Below, piece by piece: positions 716 through 29,400 of a stretch of DNA of 64,000 nt; the stretch's first letter is position 1, and each line of letters opens with the position of its first letter. The translations under genes were made by a program, and so were the position numbers. The notes under the pieces are model-generated. The model searched no databases. It saw only the letters and a list, made by a program, of their open reading frames with translations, and had not been told where the DNA came from. Origin of the DNA: Tribonema minus (taxonomy: Eukaryota; Sar; Xanthophyceae; Tribonematales; Tribonemataceae); assembly GCA_017506865.1 (NCBI GenBank), contig JAFCMP010000501.1, positions 496,001 through 560,000 on the forward strand. The letters run 5' to 3'.

Positions 716-3700
716 CCGTGTTGCCGCTGCCTGGTCTCCTGCGCGCCCTCCGCAGCTCCGTGGTCTTCTACTGGCGCAACCCGACCGTGTACTGGCTGCG
801 CCTCATTGAGCTCATCATGGTGGCGGTCTACGGTACGTATGCTGTGTTCTGTGTTCACAGTAGTTCTCGGGTGCCTTACACACAATTACTGGTGTGCCGC
901 GCACTGCGCTGCTTCAGCACTATCAGCTCGGTATCGTTTTGCTGGTGGTGTTGAAGCATGCCCCCCTCCCCTTGCGAGCGGAGATCATCATTTGCGTGAG
1001 CGGGTGGAGTTGAGTAGCAAAAGCACAGAGTGACATTTGTGACAGCCTTGCAAGCTGCAGCTTACAAGCTTGTCGCTGTGCAGAGTCAGAGGTAGTCATC
1101 GAGGTGAATACAGCAGCAAAAGATTAATGCAAGTCAAGGGGTGAACCCACCAAGCATGTAACTTTCATCCTGCTCCAACATCGTTGCTGAGTGAATGCGT
1201 TGATTGATCCGGCTGTTGATTCAGCGCTGTCAATGGGTACGTGTGATCATTGGAGGTTTCTGATTGCATTATGGCTGCTGTTCACACCCTGCCTTCCCTG
1301 ATTGAAGCTGACCACCCCCCCCCCCCCCCCCCCCCCTCGCCCACCGCCAAAATCTCAGGGGCTTTGCCCCCTGGGCTTTGATTGCCAGCACACAAATGTA
1401 TACCTGCTCATGCACTTCTGCCCCCCATGAATGCCCCACATTGCACATTGTGCAGTTGGAACGATCTACCCGCGCCTGGACACCACAACGGACAACATCA
1501 GCCAGATCTCCGGCGCCGCATTCTTCAACACATGGTGAGCGTCCCAAGTGCATACTTCAACTGTTTCAAGTGAAGTATCTGCAATTCTTGGGGCAAATCC
1601 GCATGTGTTGATGGACTTGTTGAGCGTACAAGCTTGAGGGAGGGCAAGTCACATAAATCCGTCGCGATGTGTGGGGCCTGTTTCATGCAGCGACGCACAT
1701 AACAACACCCAGCAACATGTCGCTCTCGTGGCGGCGGCAAGTTTCACACAGAAGACTTCAACTGGGGCCTTCACAGTGCAGAGATGTGCGCATGAGTATG
1801 TAGAGTACACGTTTGTACTCATACGTCACATGATACTGAAGTACCATCCACCTTGAAGCAGGTGGTGTTTACACTGCGAAACATTTTGTCCATTCTTTTT
1901 GCCTGCAGGTGCGTGCTCTTTGCGGTGGTGGCGGCCACGTCGTCCTTTGACCTATTTTTTGAGGCATGTGGTATTTACACTGCGATGCGTTTTGACAATG
2001 TCTTCTCGCTTGCAGGTGCGTGCTGTTTGCAGTGGTGGCGGCCACGCCGTCGTTTGTGGTGGAGCGCCGCACGGCCCTGCAGGAGATGCTCAACGGAGCG
2101 TACACGGCGCCCATGTACTGCCTGAGTGAGTACCTTGCACCAAAGTCTTACTCTTGCTGCTGTTGTTTGTGCTGAAGTGGACATGCAGCATTGCTCAACG
2201 GCTATTTGCGGTGTGCCTTGCTGAAGGGGGTGTGGTGACGAAGGTGGTCTGCTGGTGCAGGTAGCACCGCTGCTTCGTATTGCAGACGGCTTGCTGGGAG
2301 GGTTGCCGAAGTACCTGCTGTCTTGGCTGCATGTACGGCAGCACATGTGCTGAGCAGCGTTGTGTACAGCTTGATGAAACTCGATACATGTCTGTACTGG
2401 GGAGTGCTCGATAGTGTGACAACGCAAGCGGTCGCGGCAGGTATACTGCTAGTCACATCATGCTCTCTTGCGGCCAGTGCACTTCTGGGTAGGCTACATT
2501 CTGAAAGCACTGCCAGATTGGGCGTGACCTTGGGATCTCAAGTAAGTATAGACGTACAATTTGAGCCCCTCCAACTATGCGGATGACCGCCACTTTCTGC
2601 ATGGGCAGTTGCGGGCACCACACCTCAATAAAGGGAATTTATCAGCTCACCCTCTGTTGTACTGCAAGCTCTTGCGCTGTGAATCTCTGAAACCCTAGGT
2701 ACGGGCAGTCCGGCTCTGTGCATCGCTGACTGACAATAGCAACATCCTCATTGTTGTCAGGAACTTCTTGCGCAAGGCTGTGGGCCTCAGCATTGTGCAT
2801 CGGCACTCGCTCAATTTATGGACCACGCATCGAAGAGCATGGGCAGCGAGCTCACGATTTACGTCGCGACTGTTGAGCGTGCAGGCCAGTTCTGCGCATC
2901 GCTGCCCTACACGGCCGTCACAGCGATCATCTACCAGGCCATCTTCCACTGGATCGTGGGCTTCAACCCGGCGTTCGGCTCGTACGTGTACGCAGTGCTC
3001 ATCACCGTGGCCCTGCTCCTCATGATGGAGGGCATCATGCTGACAGTGGTGGAGGTGCTGAAGAATGCCATGATGGCCACGACGTTCAGTATGGTGATCC
3101 TCGGCATGCTCTTCCTCTTCCCAGGTGAGTTTTTGCTCAGAGACTCTCCCGTCATGTTACTTCAAGGTGTTTAGCATTTAGAGTTGTGCACCAAATACTC
3201 TCTGATCAGATTTGACCAGCTGTCGTTGTAGTCAGTCCGAAGCCTGATGGCACTGCAAAGAGGGGGCGTTGACATCCATTCTTTGCTGATAGCTATAAAC
3301 CCGTCTTGACATCTGCACAGTACGCTGCGAGCAAGCAAGGCACCTACTTCAACTTCAACAGCATATGGGTCCGTATGTCTTCTTCTTCAAGTCATCAATA
3401 CTTACAGTGGAGCCACGTGTAGTTACCACAACTGCTCAGCTCGCAACTTTGTGCTCTCATCTCAATGACACTACTACTGGCGTTGTATCTGTGCCGCTTT
3501 TTGCAGGCTTCTTTGTGAAGACGGAGGACCTGATTCCAGTTGTGCGGGTGAGAAAAGTGTGCAAGAGATACGTTTGCGTACGCTGATCTGGAGTCAGCCC
3601 GATTTTGAGCATGCATACTAGTCAACAACCGGTCGAGACAGCAACTCAGAGCATGGCACTTTGCACTGCACTTGATGACTGGCCATTGGTCTTGCTAGCT

Positions 3701-4681
3701 ACTTCTATGTGCTTTTCCCAGCCTGCCATTCCGCCTGTCCTAGAAGTTTAGAGTTGGGGACTCTGTCCCGCACATCACAAAATGGTTTGATTTTCCAACG
3801 CAAATGATTCGAGTTCTGCTACATATATAGCGTCAGCTGGGTTGGATGCATATTCGCACAAGCGCGCCCGACTGCGCGTGGCAGCACACATGGATGACTC
3901 AAAACGCCACCACAAACTATTGAACTTCACTGTTCTGTCTTTTCTGCCCGCCGCAGTGGATCAGTTACATCATGCCCACGCGCTACAGCTTTGGTGGGTA
4001 TTTGTACAATATATTCCACGGTCAAAATTTCGAAGTCTCTGGCGCCCCCCCCGGCTTTCCCCCCGTGAGCGGCGATTTCATACTGCAGAACGCATTCGGC
4101 CAGTCGCCCAACAGGGACAAGTGGGCTGATTTTGGGGCAGTGCTCGGCTACGTGGCGCTCTTCAGGTATGCGAAATCAACCGCTGGCTGTCTCATACGGT
4201 GTGAATGCAGATAGCGCTGGGGCGCAATTCCACAGCAAGGGTTAGAGTTAGCTGATTCCAGCCCAACTGTTGCACAGGAACTGAGCCAATGCAGAATGGA
4301 GATGGTTCAAACATTTGGCGCCTCTGCTCGTAGGACGCACTGCACTGTACGAGTAACTGCCGTCGAATCAAGGTAAATTTCAGGCTGTTGGCGCTGCAGA
4401 TGATTTTCATGCAGCAGTTCAGCAACCACTGCTTGCTCTTCCAGATACTCTGCACTCGTTCTCAAAGATTACTTCTGTTGACGTCTACTTGGGACAAATG
4501 CTCATGGCGGGTGCCAGCAGCAAAAATTCTGTCAAGTCTGATCATTCTCCATGTGTGTGCCCTGCGAATCAATGCCCCTTGCAGGCTGTGTCACCTGGCC
4601 ATCGTCATGGTCACCGTGCACCCGTACACCAAGAAAACAATCGCAACCGGGAGCACCATTGCCCCGGCCGGCGCTGCTTAG
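716..4681 (+). CDS. ABCG (White/PDR-type) transporter, C-terminal membrane domain (5' partial)
   Basis: This is the membrane-domain half of an ABC subfamily G exporter, which normally moves lipids, sterols or hydrophobic compounds across a membrane. Exons read in one consistent phase: 716-832, 1456-1534, 2016-2125, 2885-3124, 3507-3547, 3957-4165 and 4585-4681 (TAG). Family landmarks appear in order: the WRNP motif before the first helix, GAAFF in the second exon, VVERRTALQEM as the ER...E element, ASLPYTAVTAIIY for the LP...Y motif, then several hydrophobic helices, GFFV with a short lumenal stretch, and WISYIMPTRYSFGGY near the end. About 297 codons are visible. The nucleotide-binding domain is outside the window, so half versus full transporter cannot be told. 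The intron before the third exon carries a decoy copy of that exon's 5' edge. The start of the first listed exon is the least certain border. Confidence 0.88.
1313..1336. repeat. Poly-C tract in ABCG intron
   Basis: An almost uninterrupted run of more than 20 C follows ACCA and precedes TCGCCC. It lies in the intron before the exon at 1456. Similar C or G runs occur at 10907-10933, 23797-23818 and 26369-26390. Confidence 0.85.
1864..2060 (+). repeat. Tandem copy of ABCG exon 5' edge (2 units, ~107 bp)
   Basis: The intron end and first ~40 nt of the exon starting at 2016 are preceded by a diverged copy with a second polypyrimidine-CTGCAG acceptor at 1908/1909. Both units begin with a TTTACACTGCGA-like string and run through the acceptor into GTGCGTGCT and the GGCGGCCACG segment. 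The offset between acceptors is 107 bp, so use of the upstream acceptor would shift the frame. Confidence 0.85.
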
Positions 4682-5958
4682 GCCAACAGGCCTCTGACTG
4701 AAATGCGCCCACACACCAACGGACCAGTCAGCTGCAGCCGCGTTGCTCAGCACAGCGGAGCAGCTTGGCTGAGCATGCCGTTATTGCGGCTCCAATGCGC
4801 CTGTTGCACTACGTTCAGCGACGCTGTCACAAGCGTATACCTATGTAGAGGTTGTGCCGCAAAAGAAGGCGTGATGCACGGCCTCAGTAATTGGTAGCTG
4901 TGGGACGCGGGTTTCGATGGGACGCGTATCCATTGTGGTGGTTTCTCCGTTTCTGGCAGGCAAATGGTGCCTTCGTTTCAAGTGTGTTTCACACTAGCCG
5001 CGGGCAGGGTTACAAAGTCAATGGCCACTGGCACGTGCACCATTTTACTTGCGGGGTGCTTTCTGCAGTGCCCCCTTTTCCACTGTTGGATACATGTGGG
5101 AAAAATGCGATGCTGCTTGCATCGTCAATGGGCCTCAGGTAGTTGGTTTGCCACAGATGAAGCGGTCATCAGTTGAGAACGTAAGTCATGGCAACCACTG
5201 GATGGCTACTGGTGACAGCATGCAAGCAAAATGCGACCCATAGCACCGCAATCCACAAATCACTGTCCAACGATGTGCATTTCATGCCTTCACGAAGCCG
5301 TTGTCAACCGACATTTTCAAACTGTGGCTGTTGCCAGACGTTGGCTCAGCCTTCAGTGGCAAGGTTCAGCGGGCGCACTATAACTGTACTCCTTCGGGTC
5401 ACGAAGAATATGACACTGAGGAAAATGATGCATTGGATCAGGCTGACATGCAGTGCAAACATCATGTTCAGTTGATTCAAGAGGTGTTGCTCAGACAGCT
5501 CATCGCGCAAAGGGGAGGATCTAATGCACAGCATGACAAAGAGCGGCACGTATTACAGCGAGTACGATCTCAGATGCAAAGTGGCATCTTCAGAACTACC
5601 ATCAACTGCCTATTTGAGAAATTTTTCATGAGACAATCGCCTGCTGTTGCGAACAGGGGGGGGGGGGAGCTCGAACTTTGCTCTGCACCAAGCGGGCGTC
5701 AGGGCCGGTGATTGCACCGGTACACCCTCAGCTAGCCCGGGGTCAATTGGCCATGGGGGTACGCGCAGTGCTTGGGGCGCGCTCTCCAGGCACACAGGGC
5801 ACTAAGTGGGCGCCAAAACACAGCCAAACAGCACACACCATCAACGGCGGCGCGTCAACTTCTAAGGCGCTGTCAGACAGGATCACTCTAGCGCTGCACT
5901 GCGAAGCACATCATGTTGCGATAGCACACAGGCTATAGGCGGACTGCGCTAGGTCAAG
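4682..5958. other. Intergenic, ABCG 3' end to PLP-enzyme start
   Basis: About 1.3 kb between the ABCG stop and the next start. It contains a G-run near 5657-5667 and several short open frames without family resemblance. It presumably holds the ABCG 3' UTR and the promoter of the next gene. No recognisable TATA box or other clear element was found. Confidence 0.5.
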
Positions 5959-8461
5959 ATGCCAGGGCACACCATGCACACCACTGTGCTGGCGGTCCTG
6001 GTGCTGGCATATGTTTGCTGTGCAGCGCTGTTCCCCCAGCAGCAGCAATGCTTGCCAAGCAGCACGTTGCTCAAGATGCTACTGAAGAGTTCCATGGCGT
6101 CTGATACCGCCAAGCAACATGAGTACGGCAGACTAACGGTGGCTGCGAAAGCTGTAGCCTCCAGCGTACAAGATCAGATGGTCACACAGTCCCCGGTTGA
6201 CACTTTTACCATTAGGGGACGCACTGTCCTGGTGAAGAGGGACGATAAGATGCGGCTGAAGGGCAGCGGCATCAGCGGCAATAAGGCTCGTAAGCTCTAC
6301 ACTTTCAATGCCACCCCTGCGGATCAGCTTCCTGATTTGGTCGTCAGCCACGGTGGCGCCCAGAGCAATGCGATGCTGGCTCTGGCAGCAGTGGCCACCA
6401 GCAAGGGGAAGCGGTTTAGGTACTACACCAAGGCGGTGGGGCGCTGGCTGCGCCGCACACCGAGGTGAGCATCATGCGCATTCACAGTGGCAATCAAGCT
6501 CCGCTTCTACTTGGCGACACCACCAGTCTACGCCACACTGCAACTTACTATGCTGGCACTTCTGTGTGCACTCGCTGATTCACTCACTGACCGATGCTGC
6601 CATGTACCACTCTCTTTGCATGCAGCGGCAACTTTGCACGCGCAATGGCGCTCAACACAGAGATCATCGAGGTACACGCAGAAGACTACGCCTCCGCATT
6701 TGGGGGGTCAGATGGACCCCCCCGAGCACCCTCCCCAGACATCTGTCCAGAGGGGGCCATGTGGGTACCGCAGGGGGGGGCTTGCGCCGATGCGGAGGCG
6801 GGATTGAAGATGCTCGCTGACGAGATCGCTGAGTACTGGGGGCAGCACTCGGGGGAGCGGGAGGGGCGCGAGAAAGAGCTGGTGGTAGTGGTGCCGGCGG
6901 GAACAGGCAAGTGAAGACTTGAATCGTGCTAGCGCGCGCATGATCACTGCGTTCAAAATGTGTTGTTGTGGTGGTGGTGGCGGTGGTGGTGGTGGTGGTG
7001 GTGCCCGCGGGCACAGGCAAGTTGTGCTTGCGCGCGCATGATTGCAGGTTTCAAAAAGTGTCGTGGTGGTGGTGGTGTGTGGTACTGCCTGCGAGAAGAG
7101 GCGAGTGTATTGCGCGCATGAGCGCTGCTCAAAGTGCGGCTGCGTGAGGAAGTTGTTGTCGCTGTGGTGACCAGCAGCAATGAGTGACTCACAATTTACA
7201 GCGGCAGTGAGTGACTCATGAGTTGCCCGTGGTCATGAGACCATCAGTTGCACTCATGAGGCTGTGCCTTTTCACCGCTGTGACAATGAGGCATGCATAT
7301 AGCATGTGTCACACGTGGAATGAGGCGTACGTGCACAACACGGCACTCCTTGAACTCCCCTACTTGTCTGCGTGTGGAGCGTTGCACTGGTACGTACTGC
7401 AACAGACCTTGCTCTTGTACGTGATTCCGACCATACTGCGTCAGCGACAAAGTTCTGAGAAAAGCGTCCGCAAGTGCCTCCATGCGTGTAAAGTTTGAGT
7501 CAGCATGCACCCGGCTGCAAGCAGCCATCCCTGCACACATCACAGCTCGTGTGCCAAAGCTCGCAAGCAAGAGTTTTGCGGGCGCACCTTGCTCCATGCC
7601 TACGTTACTTTGGCAAGAATGTTCTTCGCAAATGAGGCCATCAAGCCCGTTTGCATACATGTGGAGCACTGTGCGAGGCATGCCTCAGGCTCAACACATG
7701 ACCATTGACTACACTGCACAAGGCATGAGTTGCGCTCCAACAAACGCTGCGCAGCGTGCAATGCACACGCAGCCAGTGCAGCCAGAGCCTCCGAGGCCCA
7801 CCTGACTGCACCACGCAACGCTACAAGAAAACGCGACACTGCATCACCCCCTACCTACAACTTCTCACGCCCTGCCCTCCCCCCGATCCCTCGCCCCGCA
7901 GGCACGACGGCGGCGTTCCTCAACCGCCACCTGCGCCCGCACGGCAACATCTCCGTTGCCACCGTGCCCTGCGTCGGCGGCGCGGACTACCTCTCGCGGC
8001 AGATGCGCAGAGTCCTAGGGGCGCCGCTCGAGCCGCTGCCGGAGATCCTCGACGGCGCGTCAGCGCTCAGTAGCAGCACTGCAGCAGCGCTCAACACCGG
8101 CAAGCGCGGTGCGCCATCATCGCTCAGGAAGCGCAGCGGCACGCCCGTGTTCGGCGCGCCGCGCGCAGAGCTCCTGGCCGTGTGGCAGGAGCTCAAGGAC
8201 CTGGGCCTGTTTGTAGACTTGCTCTATGCGGCACGCGCGTGGGAGGTCCTGTTTGAGACGTGGGCTGCGGACACCAGCCCTAGCGCGGGGGCTGACGCGG
8301 AGGGTGGGGGGGAGGGGGGGGACGAGGGGGCCCCCCGGGGGGCGCGGTTATTGGAGGGGCGGACCCTCATGTATGTGCACTGCGGGGGGCTGGAGGGGGT
8401 CAGCAGCCAACTCACAAGGTACCGGCACCTGGGGCTGCTGGAGGCGGACGCGGTGCAATGA
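5959..8461 (+). CDS. PLP-dependent ACC deaminase / D-cysteine desulfhydrase family protein
   Basis: Fold-type II pyridoxal-phosphate enzyme. Relatives deaminate 1-aminocyclopropane-1-carboxylate or desulfhydrate D-cysteine, giving ammonia plus a keto acid. Exons are 5959-6464, 6626-6906 and 7902-8461 (TGA), for 448 residues. The PLP lysine sits in SGNKARKLY, followed by SHGGAQSNAMLALA and, across the first junction, SGNFARAM. The phosphate-binding turn is PAGTGTTAAF at the second junction, then VGGADYLSRQM. The N-terminus (MHTTVLAVLVLAYVCCAALF) is hydrophobic and looks like a signal or transit peptide, so the protein probably enters the secretory pathway or an organelle. It is longer than typical relatives because of Gly/Pro- and acid-rich inserts in exons 2 and 3. 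Intron 2 has a GC donor (ACAG|GCAAGT). Substrate cannot be decided from sequence. Confidence 0.88.
6881..7135 (+). repeat. Three-unit tandem array of exon 2 3' edge with GC donor
   Basis: The last ~25 nt of exon 2, its GC donor and ~55 nt of intron are repeated about 110 bp apart. Unit 1 (6881-6962) contains the real junction at 6906/6907. Unit 2 (about 6991-7060) repeats a GTGCC..GGG.ACAG|GCAAGT junction at 7016/7017. Unit 3 (about 7079-7135) is more degraded. Each unit shares a GCGCGCATGA segment downstream. A (GGT)n microsatellite at 6966-7001 separates units 1 and 2. Confidence 0.85.
6966..7001. repeat. (GGT)n trinucleotide microsatellite
   Basis: About twelve GGT triplets with one GGC interruption lie inside intron 2 of the PLP-enzyme gene, between two copies of the duplicated splice junction. 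Confidence 0.9.
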
Positions 8462-9837
8462 CGAGCAATTATGAGGTTGCAGTTGAAGTTGAAGGACACG
8501 GGAAGAAGCACGCTTATTGCGCGCAGAACAAGCCGCACGATGCGCCAGGAGCATTGGCGAAGGCTGCTGTGACACCCTCGTCGAGCAGCAGTGCTGTTGC
8601 AGCCAGTGGCAGCGGCTTGTGACAAAGTCTGCTTGCTTACATCCAAGTCTGACGTGGTCAGCTGATTCAAGTCGATGTGGCCAGCATTTCATGGCCAGCG
8701 CAGATGGCTGGTGCACACGATGGGCTCATGCGCAATTTGCAGCCAAGTTCCACACCCGCCGTGGCTGATGTAAAAATTGAACCTGGCGTCTCTTGTGCAT
8801 ATGCACAAGTGATAGGGGTACAATGTGTTGCTCCCCTCTCTCATGTGCCATTACCGGCACATAGCTGGTGCACATACAAAAGTCATCAGATGCATGCCAT
8901 TGCCTGTCGCGCATGCCAAGTGTGTGATCACGCACGCTGCAAATAATAACTTTGTTTATCGGGTACGCTGCAAGCCTTGCTGCTACGCCCTTGTTTTATG
9001 CTGATGGCTTGTGTGCTCAAGGGCGAAGGCGCTAATAAATGTTGCATGCGCAGTGTCATACCTAAGTAGAGTGCAAGGTATTCTGAGCGCATGCCAGCGT
9101 TAATGCTACTGGTTGTGCAATGCAGTGCACTTAACCCGCGACTTGAGAGGACACTGGTGTTGCCTCCAATATGTTGCCCACGGCCTTCGCAAGCTAGAGT
9201 CTTCAGCTTTTGGCCAAGCTATCCCCTGCATTATCTGTTCCACTGCATCTTCAAATGCCAGCCAGTGTGCTATGCTGAGCTAGAACTAGTCACTGCACAA
9301 GGTGCTGAGACATATAGCATGCGCTGCGCTTGCTTCACTGCTGATATGCTCCAGCCAACCCCAAACCTCAAAGTACAGCATGAGAATCGTTAGCAGCTGA
9401 TCGACACAGGAAAAGACAAGCCATGTGAACATTATGACACGTCAGCGACATGTGGCGCTGCGTTGAGCTTCGTGCATTTGTAGGCATGTACCGCAAGTCA
9501 TTTCCTCATGTGCACACATTGGCAGTGAGTGCACTCATATGTACTACTTCTGACAATGTCACACAGCAGCATGACTGTGTCTGCCTCATTGAAGCAACTG
9601 ACGCTGTGGACCGGGCATAGTCCTGAATCGTGGCTGCTGGGGCAAGTCATACTACCAGTTTGAAGTGAAGTACGCAATGCGTGATGTGAACAGCTTGCAA
9701 CTGCAGCACCATCTGACTGAAGCCACGTGCCACCGCCGCTACAGCGCCACTGCCGTCAACAACTTCAAAACCCTGTTTTCACCCTCTGTGCGCCCTCTCC
9801 GAGCAGCCGCACCACACAGCAGCACCCAGCGCACTGC
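8462..9837. other. Convergent intergenic region
   Basis: About 1.4 kb between the stop codons of two converging genes. It should contain both 3' UTRs. No extra gene, tRNA or clear repeat was recognised. A TTGAAGTTGAAGG string at about 8484-8496 belongs to the widespread ACTTCAA motif family. Confidence 0.5.
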
Positions 9838-12800: not shown

Positions 12801-15800
12801 GCTTTCAACGCAGGTACATACTTCGAAGCATTGTTGAATGAAATCATTCAAAGATTTGCAACACATCGTATTGAGCGCCCACCTACCACAGTTTTGCTTG
12901 CACAAAACCCCTCTGACAAGGGTGCTTGGCAGCTCATAGGCATCCACCACCAGCAGCATTGCACATCTTGCATCAAGCTTTGATGATCAAAGCAGTGAGT
13001 CAAACTTGGTGCCATACTGCGAATATCATGTACTTCCGGCAACTACAAGGTGCTGCGCATGGCGCAGCGCACGCGTCTCACCTCCTGCAGCTCGGACTGC
13101 AGCAGCGCGGCCTGGTAGATGTGGGGGCTGTCGAGGGGCTGCTTGAGCACCTTGAGGTACACAAACAGGATGTGCTTGCACAGGGGGTTGCGGTCGGGGC
13201 AGTCACACGACGGCACACTCGCAATCTGCACGCGGTACACGTTGCCGGTGGATCTGTCCGCGCATGCACAATTGCAAAACGAAGAATAGGTTACTTCAAG
13301 GTGAAGTTCGAGTATCCTGGGCACACACACTCGCAATCTGCACGCGGTACACGTTGCCGGTGGACCTGTGCGCGTGTGCGCAATAGCAGGGATCAGGGAA
13401 GATCCAGTGGTCACTTCGAGGTGAAGTTCAAGTATCCTGGGCACGCAGAGGGGAAAAAATACATGTACCCAACCAATACTGCAGAGCACGCAGCTGTGAA
13501 AGGAACATGCACGTCAAGGTGTGGTGTGTACAGGTGTACGCCAGCACATCTGGGCACTGAGACGGTGAATTAACATGCTTCTAATCATAAGCGATCGATC
13601 GCTTGTCACAAGAGCACGGCAAGCACAGATGACAAGGAGTTTAAAACTTTGAGCAGCAAAGCTGGTCATCCATGTGATATGTCCGTCATTTTGGCATAAC
13701 TTACCGCGTTCAACATGAATTTACGGGTGACTCTGCAGCATGTGCCGTGTTGGCAGCCGTGTGCATAAACTCAACACAGGAACCACGGGGCATTGGCAAC
13801 CACGACGTACTGTCTAGGCAGCCATGCAGAGGGCTGCATGACATCGTCACAAGAAGGCTCTCTAACATCAATGAGTAACTGTTGACATAACTCACCCGAT
13901 GACGCCAAACTCGTGGTGGATGTTGTCTGGCTGGCTGAGGTCACGCCTGCAGAACAAATGCCAAGTCAATGCTTAGAGAAAAATGGTACTGAATAGTTTG
14001 AAGTGTATGCCACAGCTGTTCAAATGCTTTGCACAAGTGTTAGCAAAATGCAATCTTGAGCGGCACCGCAATGCATTATATATATACACACCATATATCG
14101 GGCATGCTGTACAGCTACTTTGCATGAGAAATGCACGCGAGAAACGTGACATCATTTTGTTTATTGACTGCAAATTCAATGCGTACAAAAGGTGCTCGGC
14201 TTTTGCACCAGTGCCTGATGCTAGGTTCAAGCCCAGATAGATGCAACAACGCGGCAGAACCATGGGAGGATGGCATGATCGTTGCTGATGAACCGTCACA
14301 AAAACATGATTTCTGATGAACCGTCACGAAAACAACGTCTTTTTTGTCAGTGAATGTAGCGTCTAATCTTGTTCACCAGCATCACTTACTTCCCTGATTT
14401 GAAGTTGACCGTATGAGCTGCGTCCAATGCAGTCTTCGTGCTCCACACACAGGACCTTTGCCTTGAACACGTGAAGTTAATGGCAGCGACAGCGCTCAAG
14501 TACTTCAACTGGAATGCATAGCCTACTTACCTTTCCATTCCTACTTCAACAAGTTCACACACTGTGCATACCTTTCCAGCAAGAACATCCGCTGCGTTGC
14601 CGCCCTCTGTATGCGCTGCATGATGGGCATGGGGCAGCTGCTGCGGAACCGGGCCTGGCGCTTCTCAGCCTGCAAGATGACGAGTGCATGCGAGAATGAG
14701 TCAATGCGCGACGCGCACTCGCAGACTCTGTACTGTACTCATATTTCAAGTGACACTCTGATCACGACTGTGCATTTCATATCCGCGTCCAGTCTAGAAA
14801 TGTGGTCGCAGCGACTGACTTGCAGTTCCGCCACTTCAACATGTTGCCTTGTCACCTATATATGAGTAGAGAGAGACACTTTGCAAACCACAAAACCTAC
14901 AGTAGCCTGCTACCTTCCGTGACGTACGGTGCCTGCCCTAAGAGCCCGACAAAGTGATCATTTTCAAACATGCCATTTTGCAATTTTGGAGGCCATCGCA
15001 GACACAGACCTTTTGGATACTGCAGTCGACTGATAAGTGCCGTGAACATCTCACACAAAGGCTGGCATGACTGAGCTCTCGCCGTGTTTCCTGCGGTTTG
15101 TGTCAACCATCCCTCTCCAAGCTACATATACCCCTCGGTTTAGGTGAGTCACTGACCGATGCCTTCTTCTTGGAACTGCTGCCTCCCTCCGCCGCTGCAC
15201 GCCGCCGCTTTCGTGGCGTCGTCTCCGCCGCTGCTGCTGCCGCTGCGCCCGCCGCCATCGCCCCTGCCGCCGCAGCAGCAGCACCACCACCAGCGGCAGC
15301 AGCAGCAGCGCCACTGGCGGCAGCAGCTTGCGCCACATACGGCATTGGCGGCGCTGCAGCAGCAGCTGCAACGGCTGGGGCAGTGCGCAGCACTGCGCCG
15401 CTGTCGCCGTCGCTGTCGTGAGAGAGGTCAATGTTTGCGCCGCCAGGCGCCGCCCTGCGCAGCGGAGGGGGGGTGGAGGTGCAGCAGTGATATGAGGCTG
15501 TTGAACTTACTCAGAGCAACCTCAACTTTATCAGGTGACGCACAAGGGCAGCAAAAGCAGTGTGAATTGCTGCAGCGGCAGGAATGGATTGCACAACTGC
15601 ACAACAACTTCAAGCGTGGATGTGACCGGCACCGCACAGTGTGATCTCTGAAAGCAACAGCAGAGCGCCTCAATGCCAGAATATGAAAGCCAAAGACAGC
15701 TACTGGCCACTTTGACTATGCTGCTGTCAATGAGTGAGTCATGTGCGAAAACCAAAGCAGAAGCACATTACTCACCCGCTTGCATCCGCTGAGAGGTCAA

Positions 15801-17002: not shown

Positions 17003-17140
17003 CGCGCCGTGTCAATTCGCTCAAGCCAAAAATAATAGGGTTTGGCAAAACCCTGTGACGTCGTTTTAGGTCTTGCTCTGAAACGAAACCGTTTATTCCT
17101 CGCGTTGGTGTGTGTGTAGTGTGTGCGCGACAAGAGGACA
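17003..17140. promoter_or_regulatory. 138 bp divergent promoter with CRE-like site
   Basis: The only DNA between the start codons of the minus-strand E3 gene and the plus-strand LRR gene, so it must hold both 5' UTRs and both promoters. It contains an AGGGTTT / AAACCCT inverted repeat (17037-17043 and 17048-17054). Immediately after it comes TGACGTCG (17056-17063), which carries the palindromic GACGTC core bound by bZIP factors. The site assignment is by motif only. Confidence 0.5.
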
Positions 17141-20100: not shown

Positions 20101-20753
20101 CAAACCTTTTCTACGAACTAAAGCACTTCTTTTGCACAACAAAGCCCGGTGCTGAACACCATGTTCATGTTGCGGGGGCTATATTTTGGCACAAGTGTTT
20201 CAGCATGGTGTGCAACCAGGAAATTGGTTCATCCGTCGTTTATTCCAGCGCTTCACAGCAGACACTGTTGTTGATACCCGTGTGTTCTACAAAATAGAAG
20301 TGTGCACATGCCTGCCTTCAATGTTGCATGCCACATACGAGGCATATTCATCTCACACGACTGAGCGAACCTGGAACCCTGCAACGCTCGCGCCTTCATT
20401 GCTTCTGCACAGAGTACATGCAAGCGAACGCAGAGCTCGCCAAGCTCATCGCCGACCCCGAGCACTACGACATGCTCTCGCAGAGCGACGCCGTCTACGA
20501 ATCCGTGGTCTGCAAGTTCAACTTCATACCCGTGGCAGCGCTCACCCCCATGAAGCGCAACCCCTCCATCATGGGCACTCCCGGAGCGTTGCGAGAGGCC
20601 CTGCTGCAAGCGGCGCCGCCTAGCAAGCGGGAGCTGCTGCTGGCTAGTGAGGGCGCAAAGCGGAAGGCCGCCATGGTGAAGCGCACGAGCAGCAGATGGG
20701 CCAAGAACGCGCTCAGGAGCGTAGGCAGTTCCGGTTTCTTGGGAAAGTTCTGA
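17141..20753 (+). CDS. Leucine-rich repeat (ribonuclease-inhibitor type) protein
   Basis: Seven exons: 17141-17436, 17768-18049, 18416-18514, 19095-19349, 19664-~19732, 19962-20092, 20413-20753 (TGA), for about 490 residues. Repeats follow the RNI-type LxxLxLxxNxIG pattern, for example LTALNFSRN across the first junction, LQVLDLSSNPL, LVELDLRGNRIGPVGAAALA and LEVLKLSGNCVGSEGAQALA. The C-terminal ~110 residues after the repeats are basic and repeat-free (FNFIPVAALTPMKRNPS, then KRELLLASEG and GFLGKF). No signal peptide or transmembrane helix is visible, so it is probably a cytosolic or cytoskeletal scaffold. Intron 1 has a GC donor (GCAG|GCAAGC). The donor of the fifth exon is a guess: GTCATT at 19733 keeps phase but gives an irregular repeat. 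Partner unknown. Confidence 0.8.
18686..18724. repeat. Short tandem repeat in LRR intron
   Basis: GTAGGCCATCGCGAG occurs twice in direct succession with a small spacer, in the intron after the exon at 18416-18514. Nothing suggests function. Confidence 0.7.
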
Positions 20754-21516
20754 ATGAACGAAATGATGATCTGCTGGTGGCGTTGCCTAGGCCTTTGACC
20801 GTTTCACCAAGAGCATTAATTTATAAAACACAGCAGCCATGTCGTCTCTGCACCTCACCTGAGTAGCTCACAAGTGACCCACCATCGATGGCGGCGCTTG
20901 CTGCTTTTGTGCGTCTGATTTGCTGTGAGCGTCGTTAACTGGAGCAAGGCATGATTTGCAGCTCAAAAACAACACATTGTACACACAGCACCAACAGGCA
21001 ATGCCGCGCACTCATTTCCTTCAAGTGTAATTCTGTGTATTCGACGATGCAACGACAGCCAGGGGGTGTCCTTCCCCAGACACACAATGCCGCGGCCAAC
21101 GCCGCTGCTGCAAGCGCAGCAGCCACCACAATCGCCGCTGCAACGGCTCTAAGCGGAGCACTGCAACACGTGCCCGAGCAATGTGCGGCATCGCTGCTGC
21201 AGCAGTATTGCGACTTGTACCACCGCACACCTGTGCTGCCCAGACCACGGCATTTGCACGCAGGGACAGCCTGTAGAAATGTGTGAGGCGCGCCATTCCA
21301 CTGAACTGCAACCTGAAGTTGTACAGACATGAGGGCGGGCCGATTCAAAACCACAGTCGCCAGCGGGCGGGCACCACAGAGCCCCCTTGTAGCTGCCACT
21401 GCCGCAGAATTCGATCCTAAACCTAAACTGAGCCCTGCCTGTGTACGGAGCCATGATCTTGTGTGCTGCACATGAACGGACTCTGAACTTTGAATCTGGA
21501 CTGAGGCGGGGATTGT
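20754..21516. other. Convergent intergenic region
   Basis: About 760 bp between the stops of the LRR gene (+) and the karyopherin gene (-). It should hold both 3' UTRs. It contains a GCC/GCA-rich low-complexity patch near 21088-21150 that encodes poly-Ala in one frame but lacks gene structure. Confidence 0.5.
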
Positions 21517-24500
21517 TCATGCCGGGGCTGCGCCTGCTGCGGCTGCTGCTGCCTGAGCATCTGATGCTGCTGCTGCAGCGGCTGCGACTAGCAGCTCCTG
21601 ACATGCAGCCTGGGCGGCAGGGGGCATGCTCCGCTGTGGGGCGCAATTGCAGACGGAATGTACAGTCAGCGATGGTGCATTGAGCTCAAAATTGTTGCAG
21701 CTGTTGCTGCTTGAGCACATCCTCGCGGGGACAACCAAGTATAAGCGCACACATTGCAAGAATTTCATGAAGTGCCTGAAAGACCTTTGATGCGAGCCGG
21801 GGCGCACACAGAACGCGGATGCAAGCACACTTAAGCACATCACCAGACTCACAACATAGAGCGGAACAGCCCACAGCACCTGCTGAGCATCACCAACAAC
21901 CAGCACCCAAACAAGCTCCATCTGTAAGACACAACAGTCACCTGTATGAGCGCGTAGGCCTCCGCCTCGCGCGCGTGCGCAGCGCGGTACGCATCGTAGA
22001 AGAACGCCACGGCGTTGACGGAGTCGATGGCGCTCTCAAAGTCATCGTCATCGTCCTCCTCCTCATCGCCGTCATCGTACCACTCGTCGAAAGGGCTTGA
22101 CACGTTGTCGCCGTTGATCTGTGACAGTGTTGAAGTTTGTGGTGGGGTTTTGATGGTGCACTGATGGTCGGAGCGTTGACGCCATGTGCTGCGTGGCTGT
22201 GTGAAAGCGCGCTTAGCACTCAGCATGTCACCATCTTTGTCATTGACTGCCTACGACAGCTTACTGGGTATCGCGCAAATATGTGTCATTGTTGTGTCGT
22301 TCATTCTCATCACGACTGTGCCCCCTGATCAAGCAGACAAGAACAGGGCGCCACTACTCCTGCGACAGAGTACCACAACACAAACGATTCTCACCGTCTA
22401 TGGCTGCCTGAAGTTCATGGGTTGAAGTTCATGGGTTGTGCTCTTGCCCCACTTGCAACAGCAACATCAAGCAACAACCGCGTCGCTCACCTTGCGCATT
22501 TCATATGCCGTCTGCACGGCGGGCACATCCTGCTCCTCCGCAAACCCCTCCTCATCGTCAAACTCGTCACCCCCCGCCCCCCCGCCCCCCGTCCCCCCCC
22601 CCTCCCCCTCCCCCTCGCTGTCCTCCCCCTCATCGCCCGCGTCCCCCTCTCGCTGAGCCGCCGCACTCGCGTCAGCGCTCACCCGCGCCAGCAGCGCTAC
22701 TAGTTGCGAGAGGATGAGCGGCATGTGGTTCTGGACTATCGGCGGCAGCGACGCCAGAGGGATGTTGAGGAGGCTAGAGAGGCCCAGGCAGATGGCTTTC
22801 CGGGGCCCTCCCACGATGGCGCCCGCGCCCTCTGTGGTCATGGCCTTGAGCACCTGGCAGGCGAGTGCGACGATGCGACGATTGTCGTCGTTAGCACGTT
22901 TACCTTGCAGTAGTTTGCCATGTGCGTATGATGTGGTGGCAGCCGTCAGCGTACGCAGGACTACCTCAACTAGCAAGATGTGGCCTTCAACGCCGATGCA
23001 TAACTACCACAACGTACAGGATGCAGACTTGACGCCTGCACAAACTCTAGTACCTCAAAGTGACGCTGCCTTCATTTGCACCAATGCAACACTACCTCAA
23101 CTTGAAGTTGAACATGCTGGAGACTCTTACACAATAGCAGCAGCCGCTCCATGGCGCCCTGTGCCTCCCATGAGAAGCAGTGCTTGTCGCACGGCAAAAG
23201 TACTTCAACTTGAAGAGGAGAGACTCAGTCACCACCGCCAGCAGCCGCTGCGTTGTCCCCTGCGCCTCCACAAGGCGCAGCATCGTGAAACAACCTCAAG
23301 TTCAAGTATAACCGCAAAGGGGGACTCACCACCGCCAGCAGACGCTCCGTGGTGCCCTGCGCCTCCATGAGCCTCAGCGCGAGCGCGGCGTCGTAGTGCA
23401 GCGCCGCGCACAGCGCCTCGCACAGCGCCGTGAGCAGGCCGTGCGTGTTGGCCATGCCGAGCATGCGCGCGGCGACTATGTCGAGCACTGCTGGCACATG
23501 TGCGTCCACGAGGCCGCGGCAGTTGTGTAGCGTCGACGACAGGAGCTGCGCGACGGCCTTGCCCTCGGCCTCCGTCTGGCGCTGGTCGGCCAGCACGGCG
23601 TGCGCCATGTTGACCACCAGGGTCACGTAGGGGACGCCCTGCAGAAAGGGGGGGCGCGGTTGCGGTTGTTTATGAGTCAGGCAACACAGTGCCTCAAACT
23701 TCAAGTATCAGGAACATCAAGTTTGGCCCTGGTCGGCCAGCACGGCGCGCGCCATGTTGACAACGAGGGTCACGTAGGGGACGCCCTGCGGCGCGGGGGG
23801 GGGGGGGGGGGGGGGGGGTCGCATTTGTGCGTGTGTCACATGATGCAGTGCATCATATTTCAAGTATACTTTGAAGTATAGGACATTCAAATTTGGCGCT
23901 GGTCAGCCAGCATGGCGCGCGCCATGTTGACCATTAGGAAAGCTCTGAAGCGAGCGCGGTTGCGTCAAGCAGGGACCAACGCAGTGCACCATGGTATTTA
24001 TTTGCACCATAGTGCTGGTGTGCGAAGTACCCTGTTTGCAGTAACTATACACGCGCTGTTTACTTTGTGTGTGTGTATAGATGCCCTGTCCATCGCATAT
24101 TTTCAAGTATGGGCTACTGGACACTACGTCGACTACGTCGCAGAGATTTCGCGGCAGCCAGCTTTGAATGAGAGGAGCCTTAGGGTTCGGGTTAGGGTTA
24201 GCAAAAGTGCCAGGTCTGCCCTCGGCGCAGGTGACCGTGGCAAAAGTCACCGATGGACCAAGGCCACAGGCGGGCGCTCCTGCATATTACATGTATTATA
24301 CATACCGGGCATTCCTGTGTCGCCGGTGACTGTAACTGCACATGGTGAACCTGCAATCCACTACTTGAACGTGCTGTTGTGAAAAGCCGCAGCCATGCGC
24401 ATCATATCGTGTTAAGGCCACGTATGGAGTGCGCTGAGTTGCTAGTTCGGCTCGCATGCGCACATCAGGTCATTCAAATACTTCTATTCAACCCTGCGCA

Positions 24501-26371
24501 TCGGCAACGCAAGAGTGCTACATGAGTGAGCGACCGACTGTGGACCAAACAACTAGTAATGATCAGCGCAGCTGGCCTCTGTCGAGTGCTGGTGGCGCAC
24601 GACGCACCAGCCACTGACATGACTAGAAAACGCCTTGTGGACATCAAAAAGCAAGGCATCTGAAGCTTAGCAGGCAATGCAGCTGCGCGTGAGCCTTTGC
24701 TGTTACTGTGGAGCGCCTTGAGCCGCAATGTCTTCGGCGTAAGTTGGGTGCGTTCTGCTTCGTCAGCGCTTCACAGCCGGTGGGCCCTTTTCACCTAGAG
24801 TGAACACTGGCAGAGTGCATCTTGTTTACACAATTTTGGTGAACCCCGAAATGCAAAACTTCAAGATCTGACAAAACACATGTGCGCTCAGGACGACAAG
24901 TTCATGACCTGACAACTTCACAATCCAACTGAAACAGTCGTGCGAGCACTGCGCTCGGTTGCGGTCAAGTCCACAGGTGTGATGCTGAAGGCACACATCC
25001 TGCTATCCTGCATCACCCAAGTTCCGGACATAACCACATGGTCTTTCACTTGTTCCAGGTTTTCGCGCTTGCTGCCTGCCGCGCATTGGTAACTTTATTG
25101 TCAAAAAGAAGTTTGAACACCATATGCATACGTACCTGAGGCGTGGCGCCGCATGCATACGTCTTGCTGTCCCGCGAGATGAAGTTCTCAATGGGAGTGC
25201 GAATGTTGGTGACGTAGTCTGCGGCCCACTTGTCAAACGCGTCAAAGAGCAGCGGAAACGTGCTCCACAGGGTCGGGCTGACGTGCGCGCTGCATGTGTG
25301 AGAGAGGTGAACAAGTGGCGCTGTTTGTGAGGAAAACAGCTACATAATGGTAAAATCAAAGGTGGACAGACACTGTCATTGTTGACAAAACTTGTCGCTC
25401 GAATGCCAAGAGAGACAAACAAGTAAAGCCGTTGTTGAAACAGAAGAGATGATGCACGATTAAATCAGCGGGGACTACAGTACCCAGTGTGCAACCGTGT
25501 CTGCCATCATTGGACAACGCAACACGTTGATACTGCCACATGTTTCTTGCCTCTATTGCAATGACACAATAAATTTCTGTGACACAAGATCGTCTTGTGT
25601 GCCTGTCGGAACATACATACTTCAAAAAAACATGTACTTCAAAAGTACTCTAGTATATCTATTGCAGCACAGCATGCGCATCTTTCAAAATCACTTGCCT
25701 GTAATAGGAGAGGTACGCAATGACCTCCACGGCGTTCTCAAAGTACTCAATGTACTCGCCGTCGTTGGACAGTATGGTGCGCAGCATGGGCATCAGACAC
25801 TCCTCCATCGCAGGGTAGAGGTTTGGCGTCTGCACAGCGACAGCACATAACACAATCATTAGGTTTTGGGTAAAACATCGAGGGTTACCATATGGCAACA
25901 CCATCGCAGGGTAGAGGTTTGGCGTCTGCAGAGCGACAGCACGTCAACATGGCAGCAAACGGCAGTTTAGTGAAGACATGGAGGAGTTCCTTATGGCGAA
26001 TAAGACAAGACCAAGCAAAATCATCGTTTGCAGGCACAATCAACACTAATTGCGTCAGGGCCTCGGCCAACAGCTGTTTGATGTTTGAGGCTCTGAAGTG
26101 ATAGCATTTTCCTACAGCACCCAACAACAATAAACATCAAGAAGCACTGCGATGTGTCCTCGTGAGCGACAAAGACCATGACAGCATGACAGCAAGCACT
26201 CACGTTTTCAAGTACTTCAAGACACAATTTTGACTGGAATCAAACCCCCCCCTCTCGGCTCTTGTGCCAAGGCCGCCCAACTGTGGGTGTAATTGCACCG
26301 GGTGGCCTGCGGTGGTGCCGGCATTTGCAGTTCGGGCGTTTGCAAACAAGAGCTCCAATGCCCAAGCCCCC

Positions 26372-26402
<31 letters not shown>

Positions 26403-29400
26403 CACACAAGAAACCACACAAAACACCCACCCTGTGCGCGCTGTGTAGCACTGTGGTAGCCGCCTCCATGCACTGCCCCGCAGCACCCCAAGACTTGCAG
26501 TTTGGACATGACAACATTGCACAACACCACTTCCCCCACCAAAAACACACAAAACACTGAAAATCACCCACCCTGTGCGCGCTGTGGAGCACTGTTGTAA
26601 CCGCCTCCATGCACTGCCCCCCGCCTAACCCTATTTCATGCAGAACGAAGATGACGCAGGTAGTAAATGACTCCTTCCCCCACTCAAAACAAGCAAATCA
26701 CCCACCCTGTGCGCGCTGTGGAGCACTGTTGTAACCGCCTCCATGCACTGCCCCGCAGCCATGGCGGCGTCATCGTCCTCGTAGCCCTCCTTGGCGTACT
26801 CCATGAAGCAGTCGCTGAGCTTCTGAATGAGCGTCAGCGCGTGCGGCCCAATGTGGTCGCCAAACTTGTCGATGATCGTCTCCAGACCCTGACCACATTG
26901 AAGGGGGGGGGGGTTCAGCAAGAGACAGCGTCAGCGTTCAGGGTCGCCAGTGTTTGTCCATAAGTTTGGGGTGATGTCAGCATAAGAAGCGCAAGCCCTG
27001 GGTGTGTAGGGCTGCGAACAGTCAGCGAGTGCTGGCGGTCACGTGCATCGTTTTGTCATGCTGTAAACGATCAGAGAGAGATGGCGGTGACCTGCATGTT
27101 TTCAGCCCTCAGGATCACCAGATAAGGCGGATTGTCTTCATCTGTTTTAAGCATACAGACCAGAAGGCCTGTAGGGTAGTATTATTAGCAACCTACCAGA
27201 CAGTGATGACAATGATGGATCAGGCACCGTCTGCACGATCGAATGGCGTCATGTGGGCAATGTTCAGCGATGAGCAGATATGGCGGCAGCCATGTGCAGA
27301 GGGCATGCAGGTAAGCCAGTAAGTTGCAGGGAGCTCATGAAAGACGATCATGTGCATAGCTATGCTCCTTTTCAAACGGAAAATTACAGTCAACAGGTGG
27401 TGTCATTGCGTAGCAAAGTTGATCATAATCATGTACTGCCTGCCTGCAGCTCCCCTGGCGGTCAGCCGCAAAGAGCTTCAACAAGCTGGTGGGAGCACCT
27501 TGAAATCAGTGACTCAGAGGCTGACTGTTGTGACAACAGGCTTGAAATGGGTTGGCAGGTCGCAGCAGACGCGCTGCTTCCAGCACTCTCTCATCAGCCC
27601 AGCCGGGGCAGTGCATGCACTTCCACCGCGTCCATGCAACTATCGACTGCGTCACCATCGTCACGCATGTACCCGTTGTTTTTCATGTTGCAGATAATGC
27701 TACAAAGGCGTGCCATGCCGCTGCGCGTCTTCTTTCCCTTCTGATGCCGTGGATCGTCCTGGCCCTCGCCGGCATTGCACGGGCCGGCCACAAAATGTAC
27801 AATGCATCTTGTGTTGCGCAGTGGTACCCTGTCCCTCGTTTGGACCTCGCTGCCAAAAAGGAGGAAAAGGACCAACTTCAACTTCCCCTCCTTCCTCAAG
27901 GGAGATCAGTTCCTCCTCCTTCTTCGCGGCCCCAAATCTGGGACAGCGTACCACTGCGCAAGCACATGCATTGTGCCTCGATGGCCACTCGTGCAATGCC
28001 AACAAGGGCCAGGACGACCCACAGCATCAGAAAGGATAGGAGACGCGCAGCGGCACGCCTTCTGCGCCATTTTCTTACTCTAGGCCATTAGAGCAGACTC
28101 TCACAGTATACCGATTATTGCAAAATTCAAGTTAAACTCTGGCAAAGCCCCCGTGTAGCATACTGGACAGCAGCGGCCGCGCAGCTGTGAAAAGTTCAAG
28201 TTCAAGTTCAGTTTTTTTGGTCCTCAAAAGAATGGCGCCAGCTGGCGCGTCTGACCTTTGTTGGAGCTGTCCTTTATGTGCCCTCCATGCTTACCATCAG
28301 GGTCCTTCTGGAGGACTTTCGCATCAGGACAGCTGTTTGGCTTATTACGCACAAGGGTATTACATGTGTGTCCCACAGACGATCAAGGACACTTTGTTGT
28401 TTACTGCAGGTTGTCAGCTGATTTTGGACATCATCTGTGAAATGCTACTACTTCAAGTACATCAAATTAAACCCCGAAGATAGGGTTCCGGCCAGGGCAG
28501 CCTGACCTGCACCACAAGGTCATTGCCGATCTGCTGCATGATGGCAAAATACTGGTCCAGCATCGCGGGCAGTATCGGCAGCAGCGCCGTCTCCGCAGCG
28601 TCTGTGGACTCTATCAGGAACTTGAGCGAGTTGGCTGCTTCGATCTGCACCGGCAGAGCTGCAGAGCGGCAGAATGCAATGGCGGAATGACAGAACTCAG
28701 TGCGGTGATTATGGGAACCAGTCATCGGCCACAAATGAAGGGCATGAGTGATGGCAGAAGCTGCACGCATGTCGACAATGCATACAAGCACGGATCCAAC
28801 GCCCTTGCGCCTTCCAACGCACTACACACACTGCTCAGAGAACAGGTGTCGACGCATGTACTATCGCGCGCGCTCTGTGGACACACGTGTTGATGCCATA
28901 TGGTTTGCAGCAGTGCTCAGGACCTCTGGCATGAGTAGGTTGTGAGGACATAAGCTGACAGAGAGCCTGTGCTTGCACTTGCATCTGCAGCCTCTTTGAT
29001 CCCTGATTGTCACAACATCAAACAAGGCGCACGGGCAAGGCAGAGGCAAGCGCGTTCACACAGCGACACGGTGCACCACCAACGAATGCTTTCGCGTCGC
29101 GTGCGCTCACATTTATCTTGCAGCGCGTTGACCGTCAGCATGAGGCACTGCAGCTGGTTGGCCTCGTTGCTGAAGCTGCAAGCGGAGCGGCAGACACAGA
29201 CAGACAGACAGCACAGGCACCAGTCAGTGCTCAGTAGTGTACCTGGCTGCTGATACAGCGCACAGAATCGTTGAAGCTTCAAGCGGTCTGCTTGCCGCCA
29301 CAACCTGTGGGAGCCTCCCCAATGGCTTGATATATGAAGCGCACCGTGCTTACAGCAGTGAGGCACCTACTGGCGGTGTACGCCCCCAAGAGGGCTCATA

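Follow-up and report, generated by a model that had tools for sequence, protein, structure and literature searches.

Why should the edge of an exon, complete with its splice site, be found again inside the adjoining intron? The question is raised by a stretch of 64,000 nucleotides in the genome of Tribonema minus (contig JAFCMP010000501.1, positions 496,001 to 560,000 of the forward strand, called the window throughout), a xanthophyte of the PX clade, in which a reading of the sequence alone had pointed out exon borders repeated together with their splice junctions. These intronic copies, here termed decoys as opposed to the live exon edges, are not confined to the window: about 8% of the predicted exon edges in a wider sample of the genome (38 of 462) have a copy in their own intron. 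We consider it somewhat better than an even bet, with a probability of roughly 0.55, that the decoys stem from ordinary short tandem duplication, which is tolerated across splice junctions, stays recognisable there for longer by virtue of the constrained copy, and is probably prolonged by gene conversion from the live edge.

Frequency and anatomy of the copied exon edges

The genome sampled comprises 158 Mb in 554 contigs, the window included; the sample consists of the window and 28 further stretches, 331 kb in all, with 200 kb from the window's contig and 67 kb from eight other contigs. Exon borders are the predictions of a simple, purpose-trained gene hidden Markov model (HMM) that misplaces some of them, and its exons were checked against proteins and Pfam families for some genes only. 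Repeats were detected by an ungapped self-diagonal scan, direct reading, junction-anchored alignment and blastn self-comparison. The sequence-only reading had proposed that exon ends be compared with their own introns, and this was carried out on the 331 kb: the last 50 nt of the exon were aligned to the intron-side flank at a score of at least 44, with up to 60 foreign flanks for each junction as control. Of 475 junctions 13 were removed as low complexity; among the remaining 462, a foreign flank attains the same score in only two cases, and donors (20/230) and acceptors (18/232) are affected alike. The blastn self-comparison, from which 23 of 203 hits were discarded as low complexity and in which overlapping loci were merged, yields 76 repeat loci; 44 of them were classed as junction, 15 as intron, 7 as exon, 6 as intergenic and 4 as edge, and repeats thus also occur away from junctions. 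Reassignment by hand of three loci labelled exon (L028:9366, window 23229 and window 23574) raises the junction class from 44 to 47.

The repeat units have a uniform anatomy. They are arranged in tandem, mostly measure 80-265 bp and consist of a piece of exon plus intron, with the live exon outermost. Junction-anchored alignment produced 49 hits, 48 of which extend to the junction, and identity continues past it (0.68-0.72 at positions +12 to +60, compared with 0.50 at random). Nine hits were excluded from later counts, leaving 40 units: two lie within a perfect 104-bp repeat in L004 where the exon is doubtful, L026:4133 does not reach the junction, L008:1137 is an exonic repeat, and in L028:6563, L028:6484, L027:64, L027:590 and L027:485 the HMM exons are doubtful or are themselves copies. 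The copies penetrate 18-80 nt into the exon (mean 47, n = 40; query capped at 80 nt), independently of the spacing and equally for donors and acceptors, and ungapped extension to 400 nt gives a maximum of 77. Exon, splice site and intron follow one another in genomic order, as in a tandem duplication that crosses a junction, and in the gene L028 arrays reiterate a single unit. The decoys lengthen introns and leave intact-looking splice sites behind.

In the window, all seven duplicated borders of the sequence-only reading were recovered by self-diagonal scan, direct reading and junction-anchored alignment; they are distributed over four genes on both strands, and one exon (23330-23638) is indeed duplicated at both edges. 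An eighth and weaker border had been overlooked, the donor at 42073/42074 (spacing 105, 38 nt of exon). The features are as follows.

2016..2125, + strand: live exon of an ABCG-type transporter gene (ABC2_membrane; gene HMM, Pfam PF01061, E 4e-35); acceptor 2015/2016
1909..1949, + strand: decoy of exon 2016-2125 (first 41 nt), lying 107 nt upstream, with decoy acceptor CTGCAG; exon part 37/41 identical; repeat extends over about 1853-1949 versus 1959-2056
6990..7016, + strand: decoy of predicted exon 6774-6906 (last 27 nt), lying 110 nt downstream, with decoy donor GCAAGT; 24/27 identical
13326..13365, - strand: decoy of exon 13082-13253 (first 40 nt; acceptor 13253/13254) of a SWIM-zinc-finger gene (Pfam PF04434), lying 112 nt upstream in gene orientation, with decoy acceptor GCACAG; exon part 39/40 identical
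23330..23638, - strand: live exon of an importin-7/8-like gene, both edges copied; donor 23329/23330, acceptor 23638/23639
23721..23785, - strand: decoy of exon 23330-23638 (first 65 nt), lying 147 nt upstream in gene orientation, with acceptor CCGCAG; 60/65 identical
23887..23931, - strand: further decoy of this acceptor edge, more worn, about 170 nt past the first one and 41/45 identical to it
23233..23281, - strand: decoy of exon 23330-23638 (last 49 nt), lying 97 nt downstream in gene orientation, with donor GTGACT; 41/49 identical
23132..23180, - strand: further decoy of this donor edge, worn, at an offset of 198 (approximate extent; alignment score 46)
25901..25925, - strand: decoy of exon 25699-25829 of the importin-7/8-like gene (first 25 nt; acceptor 25829/25830), lying 96 nt upstream in gene orientation, with acceptor CTGCAG; 25/25 identical
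26572..26620, - strand: decoy of exon 26706-26888 of the importin-7/8-like gene (last 49 nt; donor 26705/26706), lying 134 nt downstream in gene orientation, with donor GTGGGT; 49/49 identical
26431..26479, - strand: further decoy of this donor edge, at an offset of 275
41969..42006, - strand: decoy of predicted exon 42074-42368 (last 38 nt), lying 105 nt downstream in gene orientation; 30/38 identical

The second gene on the + strand (donor 6906/6907) has no Pfam match and resembles D-cysteine desulfhydrase/ACC deaminase. The two decoys of the importin-7/8-like gene that are identical to their exons throughout the exon part are well diverged in their introns beyond position +12, where 31% of 59 nt are non-identical at 25901..25925 and 38% of 73 nt at 26572..26620.

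Divergence of this kind bears on whether the copies are an artefact of assembly or annotation, the least probable of the explanations to be weighed. A few copies are perfect or near-perfect (L004:7685, L024:1127), and the HMM that supplies the exon borders misplaces some of them; against duplicated reads, however, the exon part of most copies has diverged by about 10% and the intron part by more, and the genes that were checked are supported by proteins and Pfam.

It is likewise very improbable, if marginally less so, that the copies were templated by RNA or cDNA from splicing intermediates, or that exon edges were spread by a transposable element in the manner of introners. In some units similarity does fall near the junction. 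Against this, the copies match their own exon, nearly all hits reach the junction, and the intron similarity persists beyond it; an origin from introners or another dispersed element was rejected on the rarity of matches to foreign flanks. Telomere-like motifs are not enriched at unit ends, other elements and joined-exon copies having not been searched for: they occur at 2 of 40 ends as compared to 3.8% of random intron positions, and insertion of telomere repeats was rejected. As for the templates suggested by the sequence-only reading, namely R-loops, reverse-transcribed intermediates and replication slippage, nothing points specifically to any of them.

Splicing at live and decoy sites

The splice dinucleotides look intact at 35 of the 40 decoys (donors 21/24, acceptor AG 14/16), which by itself might speak for selection keeping the copies as sites of regulated alternative splicing or as alternative ends of exons. 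About 34 intact sites are to be reckoned with under neutral decay, however, and the spacings show no frame preference, with 11 of 40 divisible by three (measured to the best-matching copy, which need not be the nearest); selection for in-frame use of the decoys was discarded on this count. Within arrays, moreover, the exon parts of decoys diverge from one another by 0.154, approaching the intron value of 0.193.

Transcript evidence comes from P0121, a Trinity-assembled open reading frame in EukProt that differs from the L028 gene at three of 280 aligned residues. The intron sequences of the two are different, and P0121 is therefore taken to derive from a near relative or another strain. P0121 uses the live sites across four introns of the L028 gene; it also crosses the donor of exon 6849-7089 into a frame-shifted decoy and ends at the decoy's own TAG (the tail was interpreted by eye). 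The deposited ribonucleotide reductase P0127 equals the query with the decoys removed, and four repeat loci span its junctions; the protein encoded on the window's contig matches this T. minus deposit at 100%. Other deposited models do include decoys as coding. A deposited 'armadillo-type protein [Tribonema minus]' shares 95% identity with the entire importin-7/8-like protein encoded in the window, and the deposited importin P0001 contains, as coding, parts of the decoys 23721..23785 and 23233..23281 (the latter as AQGTTQRLLAV). These two inserts, GVPYVTLVVNMARAGVPYVTLVVNM and TTERLLAVAQGTTQRLLAV, are both missing from the Chrysoparadoxa and Pylaiella proteins, and similar doublings are present in the deposited model P0122. 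Deposited T. minus proteins that carry decoys as coding, such as P0001 in the window, call for caution in annotation.

With one transcript entering a decoy only to stop there, and P0127 lacking decoys, a selected role in splicing appears highly improbable. The proposal that decoy sites could drive alternative splicing is borne out with respect to the intact-looking sites; for the splicing itself there is the single transcript P0121, and no frame is preferred. The decoys show no sign of use or of being weeded out; they would be without general function and normally skipped by the splicing machinery.

Two observations on these proteins may be added. A ribonucleotide reductase deposited under Cocos nucifera (P0128) ranks second to T. 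minus by score, above Chrysoparadoxa and Ectocarpus, at lower identity; the coconut deposit is possibly a contamination. The GC donor of the importin-7/8-like gene after ...YLSYY (window 25699-25829) agrees with brown-algal orthologues, and the deposited model omits that stretch.

Junction excess and the age of the copies

How could such copies accumulate at splice junctions? According to the explanation we favour, short tandem duplications, mostly of 80-265 bp, would arise across the genome. A duplication that crosses a junction would leave the mRNA unchanged as long as the site adjoining the exon body stays in use, and duplications within exons would mostly be purged. The decoy and the intron parts would then decay more or less neutrally while the live edge remains constrained. 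As one member of a junction pair is a constrained exon, the pair stays recognisable for longer than a pair in the interior of an intron. The decoy may at times be copied anew from the live edge by gene conversion, and repeated rounds could give rise to arrays that fill introns. The observations on which this explanation builds are the tandem anatomy, a neutral-like decay, the use of live sites (in one transcript and one deposited model), the junction excess, and the mismatch in age between exon and intron parts; break repair as the origin, conversion, and better survival as the cause of the excess that remains are what we infer from them.

The excess is considerable. If repeats were placed uniformly over the same gene structures, the expected junction share would be 0.23, or 0.37 if repeats at junctions are twice as detectable. 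Simulation yields a detection bias of 1.2-1.5-fold overall that rises with age; the intron part alone is detectable in 21/40 units versus 38/40 for the exon part, which suggests a bias of about 2. The observed share is 47/62 (47 junction to 15 interior loci), or 27/42 in a hold-out count (27:15) without the discovery window and L028, still including the doubtful L004:7685 and L027:1. This hold-out is about three times the expectation under a share of 0.37 (P = 4e-4), and about twice that under a threefold bias (P = 0.02). The sequence-only reading had the repeats centred on splice junctions: an overlap above the uniform expectation is borne out by these figures, of which a targeting of duplication to junctions is but one possible reading.

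The main rival is that birth itself is targeted to junctions or exons, by GC-rich exon DNA, effects of nucleosomes or transcription, or R-loops, with events inside exons purged; we regard it as unlikely, though far less so than the alternatives dealt with above. It is favoured by the persistence of the junction excess after detection correction. Per kilobase of start positions, interior loci (15 in 168 kb) resemble intergenic ones (6 in 68 kb), and junction-spanning loci (47 in 50.5 kb) are roughly tenfold more frequent before detection correction. Exons are also richer in GC than introns (0.69 versus 0.55). On the other hand, the 15 interior loci have a GC content of 0.43-0.62 (13 of them 0.49-0.62), near the intron mean of 0.55 and without strong GC dependence. 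Windows 0-50 nt inside introns are repeated at 3.8%, as against about 4% for interior windows, a comparison that is not decisive as the interior hits are partly copies of exon edges.

Age gives a divided answer. By whole-unit divergence, the class below K 0.02 contains one junction versus three interior repeats and the older class 39 versus 12, which speaks against targeted birth; by exon divergence alone, the youngest class contains 11 versus three, which speaks for it. The two measures disagree because the exon and intron parts of the units do. Eleven units have less than 3% non-identity in their exon part; their intron parts (one unit is young throughout) are diverged by 0.31, compared with 0.36 in the others. 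Exon and intron non-identity are weakly correlated (rho 0.31, P = 0.05; without L028 0.22, P = 0.24). In a model with age only, the dispersion is too high (P = 8e-4) across 38 units, L024:1633 and L015:3514 being left out as well, and at most one exon mismatch is seen in 10/38 units where 4.9 would be expected (P = 0.01). Such differences in apparent age between the two parts of a unit suggest that the constrained exon sometimes re-copies its decoys. Within arrays (70 and 67 pairs at 40 junctions), exon parts diverge by 0.106 between live edge and decoy and, as given above, by 0.154 between decoys; this ratio of 0.69 is expected when decoys decay neutrally and the live exon alone is constrained. 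The corresponding intron parts differ by 0.199 and 0.193, with 11-13% gaps.

Arrays are found in the L028 gene (contig 210), a sugar-dehydrogenase-like gene whose seven exons join into one open frame, and in its relatives. Glucose/sorbosone dehydrogenase-like genes form a sizeable family, with 73 exon-level matches on contigs C154, C210, C58, C268, C290, C35 and others, and at least three of these genes have copied exon edges. By our own tally 12 of the 13 internal junctions of L028 have copies, with up to nine units, the live one included, at one acceptor. At C154:55400, a tandem paralogue of L028 with three donor units, identity between the live edge and the first decoy amounts to 92-100% from -64 to +28 and to 60-69% beyond +28 (the zero point lies within about 3 nt of the donor), and the second decoy is 75-84% identical in the exon part. 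Since the identity reaches some 28 nt into the intron, coding selection is insufficient and conversion or re-duplication is needed. In three paralogues the acceptor edge of one and the same exon is copied, at distances of 179, 179 and 181 nt, a recurrence that can be counted in favour of targeted birth. The sequence following the decoy is common to two C154 paralogues as judged by eye, so that the decoy is probably older than their split; four-way site patterns in the C154 paralogues, also taken by eye, are few and mutually conflicting.

These data bring up a stronger form of the conversion step, in which the constrained exon acts as a master copy, conversion refreshes its echo in the intron, and decoy junctions thereby outlast other intron DNA and build arrays. 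We put this forward only tentatively and consider it more likely wrong than right. If true, such echoes would make up a substantial part of the intron sequence in the Tribonema minus lineage.

Several points weigh against tandem duplication with differential survival as the whole explanation. Uniform birth combined with a twofold detection bias leaves part of the junction excess unaccounted for. The 11:3 in the youngest exon-based class is compatible with births biased towards junctions, provided that the exon parts concerned have not been refreshed. Of the eight near-perfect, truly young repeats, three lie in junction-labelled loci, two are intronic and three intergenic; the three junction-labelled ones are L004, whose exon is doubtful, L019:3661, an intron repeat within an array, and L024:1127. 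The age test employs indel-rich intron alignments, given the proportion of gaps, and random 45-mers also align with 31% mismatch. The tract of identity at C154 could be a re-duplication. The L028 gene, with copies at nearly every junction and no interior-only locus listed (the merging of overlapping loci could hide some), is hard to reconcile with random placement and lends some support to the rival of targeted birth. Finally, exon penetration is narrower than in a null model of uniform breakpoints (mean 47, none above 80; P < 5e-5), in which a hand-corrected row was used for the HMM donor at L028:2399, off by about 22 nt relative to P0121. For spacings below 150 bp the narrowness vanishes if at least 30-40 nt of intron are required, and as a clue to mechanism it was dismissed in that range; at longer spacings it persists (P 4e-5 to 3e-4), and there intermediate copies may have been lost.

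Known systems and other intron features

Single tandem duplications that cross a splice junction are already in print. The closest case is the potato RNA-dependent RNA polymerase (RdRp) gene, where a tandem duplication spans an intron-exon boundary (Ma, Lan and Niu 2016, PMC4974935). There, a single young event resulted in a new spliced intron and an inserted piece of exon, whereas T. minus possesses dozens of mostly older donor and acceptor copies, often in arrays and seemingly skipped as a rule. Intron gain by AGGT tandem duplication resembles the T. minus units in that short tandem duplications reuse splice-like signals within genes, but in that model an exonic segment is duplicated and an intron created, whereas here an existing junction is duplicated and its copy buried in an existing intron. 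The AGGT model is ruled out for the decoys, as these carry existing junctions; they are not introns bounded by two exonic copies of AGGT, other introns not having been screened for such bounds. Introners (PMC9860276) offer the likeness of a lineage-particular intron change driven by elements; they are described as copying themselves into many genes and making introns, unlike the T. minus copies, which are local and restricted to their own exon.

As a source of the units, break repair with fill-in is plausible. It is reported to give rise to short tandem duplications independent of sequence (CST/Pol alpha; PMC8355091), a type against which the T. minus units of mostly 80-265 bp can be set. Units of such origin would share little or no homology at their ends; in the eight young repeats, aligned length minus spacing ranges from -11 to +7 bp and amounts to 1 to 3 bp in four, few as these repeats are. 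The survey of internal gene duplications by Gao and Lynch from 2009 is of possible relevance. No genome-wide account of exon-edge echoes was found in the literature searched, with subscription papers mostly outside its coverage. Nor did the same searches list a genome with about one in twelve predicted exon edges echoed, as in T. minus, or a gene with nearly every junction echoed. The decoys amount to a natural experiment in which the spliceosome chooses between near-identical sites some 80-265 nt apart, and they provide a concrete route for intron growth and possibly for intron gain.

The introns of T. minus have further features of their own. Introns of the GC-AG type seem to be frequent: among 175 HMM introns flanked by exons of 60 nt or more, 40 begin with GC. 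The GC donors called by the HMM include at least one that is wrong (L028:2399). The octamer ACTTCAAG/CTTGAAGT is over-represented outside exons, with 69 occurrences in introns as against about 5 expected from composition, 24 in intergenic sequence and 5 in exons. Telomere-like runs of CCCTAA/TTAGGG, such as those at window 24180-24202 and 32025-32050, account for 25 exact 12-mers (overlaps counted) in introns, one in intergenic and none in exonic sequence; control units form 1 to 60 near-match intron clusters compared with 60 for the telomere unit, and one of them is equally common when one mismatch is allowed. Outside the genes, the window contains a perfect 60-bp tandem repeat of 1.9 copies at 58227-58341.

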